From: a virus
DNA length: 33,869 nucleotides
IMG/VR virus record: IMGVR_UViG_3300020472_000089
Coordinates: 1 to 33,869 of that record
Strand: one strand, 5' to 3'
Shown here: piece after piece, positions 10,851 through 19,055 of the stretch
Numbering within the stretch: the stretch's first letter is position 1
Layout of the letters: each line of letters opens with the position of its first letter
Position numbers and translations under genes: made by a program
The notes under the pieces: generated by a model
Database searches by the model: none
Told to the model about the DNA's origin: nothing
Seen by the model: only the letters and a program-made list of their open reading frames with translations

Positions 10851-13800
10851 TTATCCTAACTTTAAACCTATAGTACTTTGTAACCTACTTGCATTAAGTG
10901 AGGATTTAGATCCCATGAGACCTCCCATGTTACCACCACCACCTTTTTTAAGTTGTTCAATTGCTGATTGAGCAGCAGCAACGTTTGCTCTTACAGAAGA
11001 GTTATGTGCTTCAACAGCAGCCATAGTCTCTTGAACAAGTCTCCTTGTCCTATCTGTAATATTTTCTCTAGCATATGATCTGTTCTGATATGCTTTCTTC
11101 AATGCATAAGACTCTTTCTTCTGCTGATTTTCATTACCTCCTGTTCCACTTGGACCACCTTTCTTACCAGTATTTAATATACTACCACTTGACCCACTTG
11201 CAGAAGATGCTTGAGTTGCACCACCACCATAAGAAGTATTAAAAACCTGTGACTGTGCTTTATTACTAGATGATTTCTTCGTATCAGTTTCCTTAGTGCT
11301 AACACCTGATCCTGCTAAGCCAGTACCAGGACCACCAAGCTCAGACTTAGCCATCCAATCATTGAAATCATGATTACCTAAAGTGCTAAAGGTATTTCCT
11401 CCAAATTTAATACTAGATGCATTAAAACTAGGAGAATACGCACCACCTTTCTTATAGGTAGTTGAATTCATTAATGCATATGCCTGAGGCTCAGAGAATC
11501 CCTTACCTGTAATCATACCAGACAACCAGTCGTTGTCCATTGCACCTTGCATTGCAGCGTCAGCCTTGTTCATCTGACTAGAACTATACATCTTGTTCCC
11601 TGCACCCAGATTATCAAGTATATCTGATAAACTCTTTGCTCCACCAAGAACAGAAGAACTAGAACCACTATCAACTAAACCTGCTTGATTCATAATGGTC
11701 TTGGCTGCCATTGCCATACCATCAACACCATCTCCACCAGCTTGTTGAATGATTGCTTGCTTCATTCTATTCAAATCACTTTCACTCATACCAATAGCAC
11801 CAGATCCAGCTACCCGTCTGTCACCAAATCCAAAGTGAAGTTTACCTCTCTCTCCACCAGATGATCTTCTATTACCTCCAAAGGTCCATGAACCCCAGTC
11901 ATCATAAGAAATTTCAGTAAGTTTTAAACCCTTTCTATTAGAGAATGATCTATCTGCTAACTGTTTTAGCATAGATTTCTTATCACCTTTACCAAACCAC
12001 TGAACATCAAGTCCTAATCCTTTCTTATGCAATCCATCTTTAGGATTACGTTGCTTACCAGAAGGATCAAATCCACCTCTATTAGGTGGTCCTTTTTTCC
12101 ACTTATTACGTTTGAAATTGGGGTGATTGAAAACAGTATAACCTTGGTTTAAGAACTGGCGACCTGCTGTATTAACTGCCTGTTGTCCACCACCTACTAA
12201 TTTCTGATTTGGTCCTGCAGAACCACCACCACCTCCACCACCACTAGCACCAAGAACATTACCAAGTGCCTGGTTCATTCCACCATCACCAGTAACACCA
12301 CCTAAGATGTTACCCAATAATCCACCAACGCCACCTTGCTGTGACATATTACCAATGACACCCTTCGCTAGGTGTCCAAGTCTCTGACCGAAGGACATCC
12401 CTTCAGTACCTTCACCAAACATGGTATTACCAATACCACCTGCAATACCAAGCCATTTGGATGCTTTACTACCTGGTTTTATAAAGGAACCTGCTATACC
12501 AAGTATATCTTTAAATGTAGCTTTACCACCTTCACCACTACCTCCACCCATTATAGTGCTAAGAGCACCACCTATAGCACTTCCTTTATTACCAAATAAT
12601 GCACCACCTAATTGACCCAATAAGGGTGACTTCATAAATGACCCGAAGGTCGCATGACCATCTTTATAATCTAAACCTAAACTTCCACCTTGAAGCATTG
12701 CACCATAAGATGCTGCATTTGCTACTGGTCCTATACCACTAGTACCTTGACCACCTCCTTTACCACCAAAAAGTCCACTCAGTCCACTGCCCAAGGAACT
12801 CCAGAATCCACCGCCACCACTCTTAGGTTTAGAAGCAGAACCTCCACCAAATGATCCACCTTTACTACCACCACCAAACATTCCACCGATGGCTTTACCA
12901 ATACTACCAAAGAAGAACTGTTTATCTCCTAATCTAGGTAAATCAAATCCATCAGCATGAGCCATTTGCATGTTGGCCATGGTCAACCCAGGATTTGCCT
13001 TGGTTGCAAAGTTATTAAAAGGTATTATATAAGACTCACCAGTATTTTTCTTAGCAACATACTCAGTTCCATGACCAATAAATTCAGGACTACCTTTTCC
13101 AGGTGATGTAGATACAGGATAACCTGAATCAGGACCAGATATCCAACCACCAGTAGCGAATCCTGGTAATGGTCTAGGGCGGTAACCGCCATATGCATAC
13201 TCTTCTTCTTCAAACCCTGAATTAACATTCTTGGCTTTATTAGCGAGGTAAGCTGCACCACCTACAGTAACTACTGCTCCTAATGCCTTACCTTTCCATC
13301 CTCCAGGGAATCTACCTCTAGTCTTTAACCCTCTATGAAACTTAGTTAATGATCTATAGAATAGTTTTAAGACATTCCTAACATCACTAATCAGTGCTTT
13401 AGGATTAGTTAACCATCTAATACCTACAAAGAGACCAGCTAAATTTACAAATGATTTTGCAAACCCAGTTAATCGTTCCCACCAAGTAGCATCCTCTTTC
13501 AATAAATCATAAAGACCATCTAATATCCCAACAACCCTTGACTTAAAGAAGTTAGTGATCCATTTAAATACCTTCGCTAATGTCTCAATGGCATTACGTA
13601 TCTTCTGTTTATTATCTGGATCAGATAACCATTCTAAAGCAGGTCTTATAAGGGCAAATTTAATCAGACCACCAAGTATCTTCAGTAAACCTTCAAAGAA
13701 TTTGGGTGCACCTCTACCAACATAATCATTAATAAATCCAGAGAACGTATTCTTTTCTACTTTAGTATACTTCGGTGTAAATTTCTTTACTCTCTTCTTC

Positions 13801-14012
13801 TCGTCCTCTAACCTCTTAAGTTCTATCTTCTTGATATCTACAACAACAAGACCAATAGAATTAAGAGTTGATCCAAGGTTGTTAAACGCTTGGATAGTCT
13901 TCATTGAATATGAAGCTGCAGATTTATCGGCTGCTCCTGCTGCCGCTGCCTTCTGAATATTAGGAGATATCAGCTTATATGCATTAATTTTACTTTCTTT
14001 TTTAATCGCCAT
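10851..14012 (-). CDS. Tape-measure-like protein B with M15-like and SleB-like hydrolase segments, 1053 aa
   Basis: Residues 1-250 hold helices and hydrophobic segments (GLLKILGGLIKFALIRPALEWLSDPDN, in part). Residues about 365-600 are Gly-rich with repeated hydrophobic patches. Residues about 615-730 resemble a zinc M15/VanY-like peptidase: HPNF (630-633), then His662-x2-Gly-x3-Asp669 (LHKKGLGLD), ending with His726 (KLHFGFG). Residues about 744-850 resemble SleB-type cell wall hydrolases (MAMAAKTIMNQAGLVDSG, then SLSDIL, SSSQMNKADAAMQ). The N-terminal quarter is paralogous to the next gene upstream. This would be a tail-length ruler that also cuts peptidoglycan; all of this is inferred from motifs. 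Late promoter AATAAATA 23 nt upstream. Confidence 0.75.
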   Translation of the reverse strand: MAIKKESKINAYKLISPNIQKAAAAGAADKSAASYSMKTIQAFNNLGSTLNSIGLVVVDIKKIELKRLEDEKKRVKKFTPKYTKVEKNTFSGFINDYVGRGAPKFFEGLLKILGGLIKFALIRPALEWLSDPDNKQKIRNAIETLAKVFKWITNFFKSRVVGILDGLYDLLKEDATWWERLTGFAKSFVNLAGLFVGIRWLTNPKALISDVRNVLKLFYRSLTKFHRGLKTRGRFPGGWKGKALGAVVTVGGAAYLANKAKNVNSGFEEEEYAYGGYRPRPLPGFATGGWISGPDSGYPVSTSPGKGSPEFIGHGTEYVAKKNTGESYIIPFNNFATKANPGLTMANMQMAHADGFDLPRLGDKQFFFGSIGKAIGGMFGGGSKGGSFGGGSASKPKSGGGGFWSSLGSGLSGLFGGKGGGQGTSGIGPVANAASYGAMLQGGSLGLDYKDGHATFGSFMKSPLLGQLGGALFGNKGSAIGGALSTIMGGGSGEGGKATFKDILGIAGSFIKPGSKASKWLGIAGGIGNTMFGEGTEGMSFGQRLGHLAKGVIGNMSQQGGVGGLLGNILGGVTGDGGMNQALGNVLGASGGGGGGGSAGPNQKLVGGGQQAVNTAGRQFLNQGYTVFNHPNFKRNKWKKGPPNRGGFDPSGKQRNPKDGLHKKGLGLDVQWFGKGDKKSMLKQLADRSFSNRKGLKLTEISYDDWGSWTFGGNRRSSGGERGKLHFGFGDRRVAGSGAIGMSESDLNRMKQAIIQQAGGDGVDGMAMAAKTIMNQAGLVDSGSSSSVLGGAKSLSDILDNLGAGNKMYSSSQMNKADAAMQGAMDNDWLSGMITGKGFSEPQAYALMNSTTYKKGGAYSPSFNASSIKFGGNTFSTLGNHDFNDWMAKSELGGPGTGLAGSGVSTKETDTKKSSSNKAQSQVFNTSYGGGATQASSASGSSGSILNTGKKGGPSGTGGNENQQKKESYALKKAYQNRSYARENITDRTRRLVQETMAAVEAHNSSVRANVAAAQSAIEQLKKGGGGNMGGLMGSKSSLNASRLQSTIGLKLG

Positions 14013-14034: not shown

Positions 14035-14042
14035 TATTTATT
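14035..14042 (-). promoter_or_regulatory. T4-type late promoter box AATAAATA
   Basis: Lies 23 nt before the ATG at 14012, overlapping the TAA stop of the upstream tape-measure paralogue. It gives the second paralogue and the hub gene their own transcript start. Confidence 0.6.
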
Positions 14043-17000
14043 AAGCTTGCGCTGGTTGTGGCATTGGTACTGGAACAGGTCTTGGTATAGGAACTGGAGT
14101 TTGTATTTCCATCAACCTCTCTAATAACATAGGAACAGGAACGAATTCCAATGAAGATTGCATAGCATATTCCCTAGACAGTCCTCCTCCCTTGTTACTA
14201 AATGTTTTCTGTGTTGATGGTATAACACCAAGAACCATAGGATCAACACCCAGTTCAGCAGCCATCTCTCTCAATCCACCCATCAAAGCACCAGGTCCAC
14301 CAGTGCCCATCATTCCTGTTATGGTTCTAAACAAACCACCCATACCCATATTGTCTGCAATATTACCAAGTAATCCCATTGGAGAGAATCCACCTACACC
14401 AAAGCTATCCAACCCAAATAGTTGTGATAGTCCTGGAACATTAGCAATACCTGGTATCATTCCAATGAGTCCACCAACAGCAGGGAACTTCTTAACGAAG
14501 CCACCAAACTTATTCATTAAACCTTGAACACCTTCAGGTAAGAATGATGTAAGTGATCCTAATGCACCACCTATACCACCCTGCATGAATCCTCCCAGTG
14601 CTTTACCCAGAGGATTATTTTGCATAAATCCACTGACAGAATCAGCAATTCCTCCGAATGTTCCTGGGAACATACCTCCTAAAGCACCTATACCTCCAGT
14701 AATTGCACCAAATATATCACCACTAGCAGCAGCACTAATAGCCTTAATACCAGCAATAAATGGTGCAGCAGGTGGAAATACTATCGGTACAATTGTTCCA
14801 AGAATACTTCCAATCGGTGAATTCATTATTCCACCAACGGCATTACCTATTCCACTAACTACACCACCGATCGCTTTACCTATCCCACTAACTGCTTTAC
14901 TAATACCTTTAAAAATCTTACCAAAGAAGAACTGCTTTGTGTTTAGTCGGGGTAATTGTCTTATTAACTTACCACCAGTTGCCCAACTAAAAGGATTCCA
15001 CCAAGAACCCTTCTTCTTAGCAGGTTCCTCTTTCTTAGTAGTCCCACCTCCAAAATCTATATCAAAAGATCCAGTGTTAGGTATCTCATAATCCTTACCA
15101 AAGATACTTTCATCCTTCTTCCATATATCTGGGTTCTGCCAGATACCACCATCTTTTGGCTTGGTATCAAAAACACTACCAGAATCCCAATCTTTACCAA
15201 GGTCAGGCATCTGATAATCATCACCAAAGACACTCGAATCAATATCCCAAACACTCTTAGGTTTTTCTTCCTTCTTAGGATTCTTGAATACATCTAAGAA
15301 ATCCCACCATTGGTTCTGATATCCGTCTCCTTTATCAGTTCTTACATTAGGAGTGCCATGACGATTCTTCTGTCTATCTGATTTTTCAAAAGGATCTCGA
15401 ACACTCTCATTATATGCAGTACTTGGTTTAGTATCACCTTCATAACCAACTATCCTTCCACGATGATTACGAATTGGTTTTCCTTTAGTAGTTCCAGAAG
15501 TACCATCACCTGCTGTTGCACTCGTAGGATCTCCAGTGGTGTCATTTGCAGTGCCATCACCCTTCACACCCTTCATTTTCGCACCAGTCTCTACTGGTGC
15601 ACTTCCAGCTTCCTGTTTGAAGAATGCTTTATGGAATAACGGGAAAGTATTACCTGTAAGGTTTGCCATCCAGAAGACGTTGGGTATTTCTTTACCCATC
15701 ATCAATCCAAAAGGACCAAGCATAGCCTTCATGGCTAACTTAGCACCACCCCAGATCTTGTTTCTCATTCCAAAACCGAGAGGTGGAATCCAATCAGGTG
15801 GCTCTTTAGGGAAGTCTGGTATCTTAAACTTAGGAATGCCAGCATAGAATCTCTTCCATCCAGAAGAAATCCATGACAACATCTTCGTAGCAGAATGGAA
15901 AAGACCCATCAAGTCTTCTCTTAACTTCTTACCTGCTGCCTTCCATCCATCACCTCGGAACCCAATGTATAATAACTCACCAACATATTCACCACCCATC
16001 ATACCTATGAGTGATCCTATACCTGGTACTGGTATTAGTGTTCCTAATGCACCACCAACAGCAGAACCTACTGTCTTAAATATTGCTTTATCCCAAGGAT
16101 CCCCTGATAATATAGAGAATATACCTGTTAATAATGCACCAAAGATAGGTATCCTACCAAAGGTTTGTTTGAATGCACCTTTAAGTAACTTTAAGTTTGC
16201 TGGACCTAAGAATTTAAGTGCTCCTCTGCCCACACCCCTTTGAAGTCCTTTACTAAGAACTTTACCTGGTTTAACGTTTGGTCCTTTTGGAGATAAACCA
16301 CTCGATTTTGGTGGTGGTTTAAATGCAGATGGTTTCTTATTTGCTAATCTCTTTACTCTCTTGAGTGCTTCCGACTCACTTAATCCTTGTTTAAGAGCAT
16401 CTCGATATACTCTACTACCATTCTTACCATATCTTTTAGCGACGTTTTGGCTAGTCTTTGTTATCTTTTGATGTTTGGGAGTGGGACCACTCTTTCCAGT
16501 TCTACTTGTTTTACCTCGACCTTTACTCTCAGTGTTTCTATTTGGATTATAAAAATCCAAATTTAACATGCTAAGAATAGCATCCATCAATCCAAATGGA
16601 TTAAGAAGTGCTTGTAAACCTACTATCCCTACTAAAAGAGTACCTAACCCTTTTAGTCTACTCCAAAAAGTTCCTTGACCGTTTGTAAGAGCAGTAAACC
16701 CATCTAAAACTCTGGTTACACTACCCTTTGCAAAACCATATAACTTACTAAAAACAAAATGAAGTTTCTCTGCAAATACTTCTATCTTCTTTGTGTTATT
16801 TGGATCAGCAATCCACCCCATTATAAACTTAGTTACATCCCAAGCAACTATGGTGGAAATCCACTTGAAGACACCAAACAACATGCCTTCTAACCCCCCA
16901 AAGAGGGAATTCATTATCTGTTCTATTAGACTCTTCTTCGGTTTCTTCTGTATCTTAGTCTTAAGATTTATACCTTTGCCCAATAGAGCGTTTCTGCGCT

Positions 17001-17253
17001 CCAAATCATCTTCATTTTTCTGATCACGTTCACGTTGCATTCTGCGACGCTCTGCGACCTCTCTCATCTTATCCGTTTTAAGAGATGCTAAAGATATGGC
17101 ATGAATATCTTTAACTAAAGAACCAAGACTACCAATAGTATTACCAAGTCTATTAACAGCTAGCAAATTAGTTCTTGGTCCGTTGGCTGCCAGAGTTGAT
17201 TTGCCGCCACCACCGCCAGGATTAACTAACTTATATGGTTTTATTTTAGCCAC
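14041..17253 (-). CDS. Tape-measure-like protein A, 1070 aa
   Basis: Architecture is typical of tape measures. A charged coiled-coil candidate lies at residues about 60-90 (REVAERRRMQRERDQKNEDD), hydrophobic segments at about 110-230 and 380-430, a linker rich in Lys/Gly/Thr, then an Ala/Gly/hydrophobic region and a Pro-rich tail (VPIPRPVPVPMPQPAQA). It shares with its downstream neighbour the N-terminal KI-YKL phrase, IADPNN/LSDPDN followed by KKI, a VLDGF/ILDGL segment and RL-KQFFFG. The start is GTG at 17253, overlapping the TAA of the frameshift chaperone extension, with no Shine-Dalgarno, so translational coupling is likely. No hydrolase motif seen. Confidence 0.7.
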   Translation of the reverse strand: MAKIKPYKLVNPGGGGGKSTLAANGPRTNLLAVNRLGNTIGSLGSLVKDIHAISLASLKTDKMREVAERRRMQRERDQKNEDDLERRNALLGKGINLKTKIQKKPKKSLIEQIMNSLFGGLEGMLFGVFKWISTIVAWDVTKFIMGWIADPNNTKKIEVFAEKLHFVFSKLYGFAKGSVTRVLDGFTALTNGQGTFWSRLKGLGTLLVGIVGLQALLNPFGLMDAILSMLNLDFYNPNRNTESKGRGKTSRTGKSGPTPKHQKITKTSQNVAKRYGKNGSRVYRDALKQGLSESEALKRVKRLANKKPSAFKPPPKSSGLSPKGPNVKPGKVLSKGLQRGVGRGALKFLGPANLKLLKGAFKQTFGRIPIFGALLTGIFSILSGDPWDKAIFKTVGSAVGGALGTLIPVPGIGSLIGMMGGEYVGELLYIGFRGDGWKAAGKKLREDLMGLFHSATKMLSWISSGWKRFYAGIPKFKIPDFPKEPPDWIPPLGFGMRNKIWGGAKLAMKAMLGPFGLMMGKEIPNVFWMANLTGNTFPLFHKAFFKQEAGSAPVETGAKMKGVKGDGTANDTTGDPTSATAGDGTSGTTKGKPIRNHRGRIVGYEGDTKPSTAYNESVRDPFEKSDRQKNRHGTPNVRTDKGDGYQNQWWDFLDVFKNPKKEEKPKSVWDIDSSVFGDDYQMPDLGKDWDSGSVFDTKPKDGGIWQNPDIWKKDESIFGKDYEIPNTGSFDIDFGGGTTKKEEPAKKKGSWWNPFSWATGGKLIRQLPRLNTKQFFFGKIFKGISKAVSGIGKAIGGVVSGIGNAVGGIMNSPIGSILGTIVPIVFPPAAPFIAGIKAISAAASGDIFGAITGGIGALGGMFPGTFGGIADSVSGFMQNNPLGKALGGFMQGGIGGALGSLTSFLPEGVQGLMNKFGGFVKKFPAVGGLIGMIPGIANVPGLSQLFGLDSFGVGGFSPMGLLGNIADNMGMGGLFRTITGMMGTGGPGALMGGLREMAAELGVDPMVLGVIPSTQKTFSNKGGGLSREYAMQSSLEFVPVPMLLERLMEIQTPVPIPRPVPVPMPQPAQA

Positions 17254-17458
17254 CAGATGCTTGCTGTTGTGCTTGTTGGTCCTTCATTCGCTTCTCTTCT
17301 TCCTTAAGGAAGTCGATTAGCATTTTCACATAAATTTCCTTCTCCCAAGGCATTAGACTTTCAATGTGTTCAATGCTCCACTTATGATGATGGATTAAGG
17401 CGAAATTAGTATCATAATAACTACGAAGATTATTATGAAGAAGGGCTAGCCGAAAAAA
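17246..17458 (-). CDS. -1 frameshift extension of gp26: tail assembly chaperone (T-like) domain
   Basis: Just before the gp26 stop the mRNA reads T TTT TTC (17458-17452), a perfect X XXY YYZ slippery heptamer. A -1 slip continues through 68 more codons to a TAA at 17246-17248. The extension (LIHHHKWSIEHIESLMPWEK, then EIYVKMLIDFLKEEEKRMK and a Gln-rich tail) looks like the T part of lambda-type G/GT chaperones and lies directly before the tape-measure gene, as those do. It has no ATG near its beginning that would explain independent expression of the whole segment. The fusion product would be about 303 residues. Confidence 0.7.
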   Translation of the reverse strand, partial: FFRLALLHNNLRSYYDTNFALIHHHKWSIEHIESLMPWEKEIYVKMLIDFLKEEEKRMKDQQAQQQASGG

Positions 17459-18191: not shown

Positions 18192-19055
18192 CTAGAAGTT
18201 GTATGTTATCCAGTTAGACCTGGCATCATTAATACTTCTGTTACTTGCTTTGCGAGGATCATGTTGAGGATCACCAGGAATATGTGCATCATGTGCACCC
18301 CAGTCATCCCTTTGTGCAACGTAGTATCTATATCTTTCAAAGTAGAATCCTACTGTCATCGTGGCAATTCTAGACTCTTGGTTGTTCAACTGAATTGACC
18401 CTAAGTTGAATGGGAATACATTCCTCAATTCCCACATAGCAACTATTCTATTTCTTTTTACTTGCGAAAATTCTGGTTGTCCTACACCACATTTCCAAAC
18501 CGAATTAGCAATTTGATCTACATCCTGAACTTTAACTATACTACCGCCACCTCTTTCCCACTTAAAAATTCTCACTGTGGGTGCAACATAATTATCATAG
18601 TAATCTACATACTGATCAGCATCATTTCTCGTGAATGCCATCCATCTTTCAAAGATAGTTCTAGTCTTATGATTTGACGGCATCTTAAAGGTCATACTAA
18701 TCTGACTAAAATTAGTACCAGTTGCATACTTATAAGGTGAACCAATCGTAACCAATGACCCTGTTGACAACTGCTTACTAGGTAAGTTAATACTATCACA
18801 GTAATAATCTAGTAATAATGCTTCATCATTAGTGGTCAATGCCCAACCTGGTTCACTGCCAAACATAGAAGGGGTTGAGAAGTGCACCGAGTACATGTTA
18901 GTGTAACTCGGAATATTACCCTGCTTCCGCATGAAGGCAGTAAACTCCTGATAGGAACTATCTCTAGCCTCCTGCTCATTAGGAATATCACTATTAACAT
19001 CTATGACTAGCTGTTTAATAGCATCTGCTATTGATGAAAAAATTGCTCCAAACAT
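18192..19055 (-). CDS. 54: Baseplate tail-tube initiator gp54, 287 aa
   Basis: The sequence has the tail-tube-like fold signature seen in gp54/gp19 proteins. Residues 55-60 read MYSVHF, followed by LLDYYCDSINLPSKQLSTGS and SQISMTFKMPSNHKTRTIFE, then RWMAFTRND. A late segment contains MWELRNVFPFNLGSIQLNNQ. T4 gp54 (320 aa) sits on the gp48 cap of the baseplate and starts polymerisation of the gp19 tube. Its gene abuts gp4 (1-nt overlap) on the same transcript, and gp48, its structural partner, is just across the divergent promoter. Confidence 0.8.
   Translation of the reverse strand: MFGAIFSSIADAIKQLVIDVNSDIPNEQEARDSSYQEFTAFMRKQGNIPSYTNMYSVHFSTPSMFGSEPGWALTTNDEALLLDYYCDSINLPSKQLSTGSLVTIGSPYKYATGTNFSQISMTFKMPSNHKTRTIFERWMAFTRNDADQYVDYYDNYVAPTVRIFKWERGGGSIVKVQDVDQIANSVWKCGVGQPEFSQVKRNRIVAMWELRNVFPFNLGSIQLNNQESRIATMTVGFYFERYRYYVAQRDDWGAHDAHIPGDPQHDPRKASNRSINDARSNWITYNF

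Follow-up and report, generated by a model that had tools for sequence, protein, structure and literature searches.

The 3′ end of gp26 in a fragment of a T4-like cyanomyovirus, a marine cyanobacterial virus (IMG/VR record IMGVR_UViG_3300020472_000089; the whole stretch of 33,869 nt is termed the window), carries the slippery heptamer T TTT TTC. Judged from sequence comparison, a −1 ribosomal frameshift at this site very probably (probability about 0.93) yields a short and a long tail assembly chaperone. This reading was put forward in a preliminary description of the same DNA, and it is supported by a conserved heptamer, a −1 frame free of stops and a dN/dS of 0.08.

In the proposed mechanism, most ribosomes would stop at TAG and release the short form (gp26, TAC-N, 236 aa), some would slip back one base on the heptamer and produce a 303-aa TAC-NC with a conserved C-terminal domain, gp51, and a downstream RNA hairpin would probably aid the slip. 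If the two forms act like lambda gpG and gpGT, the short one would coat the tape measure protein and the long one would recruit the tube protein. We infer the occurrence and efficiency of slippage, the ratio of the two forms, their binding partners and their chaperone role from the sequence, and the binding to tape measure and tube proteins and the absence from the virion from analogy.

The slip site and its conservation

Profile matches gave the locus order tube, chaperone, tape measure (Table 1), and gp26 is the only PF12322 copy in the contig. The ORF that follows gp26 in transcription order is, on its sequence, a probable, not a proven, tape measure, with weak matches to tape-measure families (phrog_305, 1e-7; phrog_167, 2.9e-4). 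As a separate observation, the tandem large ORFs at 10851-14012 and 14041-17253 match overlapping families labelled endolysin or unknown (phrog_1200, phrog_790 and phrog_2588); the weak tape-measure matches fall on the first-transcribed of the two, and either ORF may be the tape measure.

Table 1. Features of the chaperone locus in the window
Feature	Position	Strand	Evidence
Tail tube protein, directly upstream of gp26	18192..19055	(-)	phrog_45 E=1.8e-56
gp26 / short tail assembly chaperone (TAC-N), 236 aa	17446..18156	(-)	PF12322 E=1.8e-76; phrog_150 E=4.3e-83
Slippery heptamer T TTT TTC	17452..17458	(-)	Sequence reading; U6 heptamer in 160/160 loci
−1 frame extension (TAC-C; gp51 in other listings), 70 codons + stop	17246..17458	(-)	phrog_634 E=1.5e-30; dN/dS 0.081
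Putative stimulatory hairpin, 9 bp, TCATAATAA / TTATTATGA, 13 nt past the heptamer	17412..17438	(-)	−7.2 kcal/mol over 55 nt
Tape-measure-like / 'endolysin' family gene, GTG start	14041..17253	(-)	phrog_790 E=5.7e-144

On the minus strand gp26 ends ...GCA TCT TTT TTC GGC TAG, its stop codon occupying 17448-17446. The −1 frame runs from the heptamer through 70 open codons (68 past the two Phe codons) to a TAA at 17248-17246, just within the next ORF (GTG at 17253-17251; 8-nt overlap), and the gap between gp26 and that ORF is 192 nt. The predicted fusion has 235 + 68 = 303 aa (TAC-NC), with predicted junction peptides ...LASFFRLALLHNNLR in the window and ...LASFFRIALMHADLR in P-SSM4. The preliminary description had placed the gp26 end, TCT TTT TTC GGC TAG, and its heptamer correctly to the base, and sequence reading confirmed the 68-codon −1 frame that it had described as stopping inside the GTG start of the next gene, as well as its fusion of about 303 residues.

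Conservation was analyzed in an initial 90 loci (80 unique), drawn from cultured phages, viral contigs and the window, and in a second set of 80 more distant loci with 34-42% identity to Caulobacter phage Cr30. A script reading found a U6 heptamer in the −1 register, starting 7-16 nt ahead of the stop, in all 160 collected loci, which are mutually related, so that the counts do not represent independent events. The heptamer is mostly TTTTTTC, with TTTTTTT in 24 of the 160 loci and TTTTTTA in one; at other gp26 positions the same heptamers occurred 10 times in 37,250. The preceding codon always ends in T, though it encodes Ser, Asp, Asn, Ala, Thr or Gly. The heptamer is kept down to about 34% protein identity and is also present in cultured phages other than cyanophages, namely, KVP40-like phages, Menderavirus, Rhizobium IC12, Pseudomonas Milchi and Aeromonas P19. 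No stop was found in any locus in the −1 frame between the heptamer and the frame end. Conservation of the heptamer and of the −1 frame, which the preliminary description had proposed to check, was thus borne out by 160 of 160 sites, an absence of stops and a dN/dS of 0.08.

Variant arrangements were seen in some phages. In Ackermannviridae and a similar Vibrio phage (L101, L102 and L104), a −1 extension with an MPWHL motif occurs without the U6 heptamer, and in the two Vibrio phages among them TAATG at the gp26 stop suggests stop-start reinitiation instead. Cr30, Menderavirus BUCT608 and a KVP40-like phage (L008, L099 and L100) carry the heptamer together with a TGATG/TAATG overlap in the −1 frame, and there frameshift and reinitiation could both be operating.

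The extension and T4 gp51

Residues 2-66 of the extension match positions 56-120 of phrog_634, the C-terminal part of gp51 (E=1.5e-30). The preliminary description had left the extension without a known identity; databases already carry it under the name gp51, 'baseplate hub assembly catalyst', though its start varies inconsistently between records. For the window's clade, dN/dS was 0.081 for the extension and 0.114 for gp26, values that are approximate, being pooled over related loci; when the other two frames of this DNA were read, dN/dS exceeded 1 and there were about four stops in every 33 codons. On this evidence the −1 frame is a real gene end. A tblastn search with the 303-aa fusion matched 724 phage records, and among the matches listed the fusion aligned to cyanophage records as two pieces in two frames.

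Most database records present the extension as a separate short gene, gp51, with its own start codon. Many annotate a CDS of about 44-62 codons, and TAATG or TGATG stop-start overlaps are found in some distant relatives. The annotated starts vary among phages, however, lying 5 nt past the gp26 stop in P-SSM4 and 50 nt past it in S-RSM4, and no gene is annotated for the extension in Syn30, ACG-2014e or Aeromonas P19. In the −1 frame upstream of the heptamer, none of the 80 unique loci has an ATG, GTG or TTG; past it, the position of the first such codon varies between codon 3 and codon 35, and in the window it comes only after 33 conserved codons beyond the two Phe. Purifying selection on these codons equals that on the rest (dN/dS 0.077 ahead of the first codon that could serve as a start in the window, 0.084 past it). 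A separate gene would moreover leave the invariant heptamer unexplained, and T4 has the same region fused in frame to a gp26-like domain. A separate gene fails to account for conserved codons that precede any start, and we give it a very small probability. Independent initiation alone, named in the preliminary description as the outcome contrary to its reading, is unlikely with no start ahead of the heptamer in 80 unique loci and variable later ones.

Transcriptional slippage on the T run, in which one extra U rather than the ribosome would change the frame, is likewise highly improbable. In its favour, the run has six Ts in most loci, and 22 of the 80 distant loci have seven; six Ts are, however, short for efficient transcriptional slippage, and the X XXY YYZ pattern with its usual TTC second codon, the fixed register and a structure a few nucleotides downstream fit tRNA slippage.

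The predicted fusion can be compared with the T4 proteins. Both T4 gp26 (208 aa) and T4 gp51 (249 aa) match PF12322 over its full length, and only gp51 runs on into the phrog_634 extension. When the proteins were aligned, T4 gp26 terminated at the slip site and T4 gp51 continued straight across it. T4 gp51 is colinear with the frameshift fusion in a single frame. Genes 26 and 51 of T4 are paralogous and lie on opposite strands as separate genes, where the window has a slip site. One PF12322 gene is present in cyanophages, Cr30, P19 and Milchi, and two in T4; the simplest reading of these sequences is that the T4 lineage swapped the frameshift for two genes. T4 gp51 is required for assembly and is missing from the particle (PMC3004832).

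Structure prediction reached a pLDDT of 41 without an alignment and 85 with 90 sequences. The predicted fold retrieved gp26-family proteins on top in a viral fold library. In a Foldseek search of the PDB, the HK97 chaperone 2ob9 came at rank 2-3 without significance (E 0.8-1.0, TM-score 0.2-0.4), and the predicted fold (pLDDT 85) had no significant match among solved chaperones. Searching solved structures by sequence gave no match.

Relation to described tail assembly chaperones

Vladimirov et al. are said to have found that frameshifting is conserved in several T4-like groups and that the T4 group has two distinct genes, 26 and 51. The reading of a frameshifted T4-like chaperone is right and is already known in kind. 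Later papers credit Vladimirov, Gautam and Davidson (2022, Virology 566:9-15) with identifying T4-like chaperone genes (PMC12846349, PMC10885494), and a 2025 paper cites the study for poly-T −1 frameshift signals in T4-like TAC-N genes (PMC12846349). Compared through these citing papers, the T4-like chaperones of that study belong to the same gene family as the window's (T4 26/51), and no difference in kind was seen.

Frameshifted G/GT chaperones are classical, and T4 was listed as the exception in 2016 (PMC5009743). As in the window, lambda gpG/gpGT are a short and a long chaperone from one gene, produced through a −1 slip at a point directly preceding the tape measure gene (PMC5009743); the window differs in its heptamer, T TTT TTC, and its larger N-terminal protein (236 aa), and no sequence relation between the two was found. 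In Vandenendeviridae and Andersonviridae (phage Adele, PMC12846349), where a conserved poly-T site precedes the tape measure gene, a −1 frameshift like that of the window has been proposed at this site; those phages are of different families and their motif is given as GTTTTT.

Cyanophage gp51 was noted by Sullivan et al. in 2010 to be short, about 20% of normal length, without explanation (PMC3037559). It looked so short because its first 200 residues are gp26. T4 gp51, described in 2010 as essential and of unknown function (PMC3004832), is read here as the long chaperone. Hundreds of marine phage genomes share an annotation error that the frameshift also settles: they name the extension as a separate gp51 or omit it. 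As represented in the papers citing it, the 2022 study of Vladimirov et al. appears to cover these points on annotation, gp51 length and T4 gp51.

RNA structure downstream of the heptamer

The RNA just past the heptamer was folded for 94 non-redundant loci and compared with synonymous-codon controls encoding the same peptide. It was more stable than 95% of controls in 58 of the 94 loci (p<0.05, approximate for each of these related loci; mean z −2.27), against 7-14 of 93-94 loci for control regions taken from within gp26 and from later stretches of the extension. Compensatory changes were seen for the stem GGTCC-ATAT-GGACC and its variants in the sister clade, with 33 cells altered on both sides; 0 of 500 shuffles reached this level, and it was lost when the partner was slid. 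No Rfam element matched the region.

The window's hairpin, with a 9-bp AU-rich stem, was not significant alone against synonymous codons (p=0.095), and had z=−3.6 against dinucleotide shuffles for 68 nt. One compensatory pair change was present in a relative, and covariation across the six sequences of the window's own clade was sparse. By itself, the window hairpin is suggestive.

We lean towards a compact hairpin about 6-13 nt past the heptamer as a conserved frameshift stimulator across Kyanoviridae and relatives, which would differ in sequence between clades and set the short:long chaperone ratio; we infer its effect on frameshifting. The structure might instead control initiation or mRNA stability, for example by hiding an ATG in the sister-clade loop, where the loop region CATATG does hold the first in-frame ATG. 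The window's clade lacks that ATG yet forms a hairpin, and the structure lies roughly as far from the heptamer as a stimulator usually does, which makes such a role rather unlikely. The hairpin is the sole part of the system that was not found described in the literature, and adds a testable element to a frameshift already known in kind.

A Shine-Dalgarno-like stimulator, GAAGG/GAGGG nine bases upstream of the heptamer, was considered and rejected, its anti-SD pairing being no better than under synonymous randomisation (mean z −0.20; 1 of 44 loci at p<0.05). A structure of another type, absent from the window, was noticed by eye in L011, among the window's closest relatives: about 45 nt past the heptamer, a possible H-type pseudoknot is formed by GCCC/GGGC around a CATAATAA/TTATTATG AU stem.
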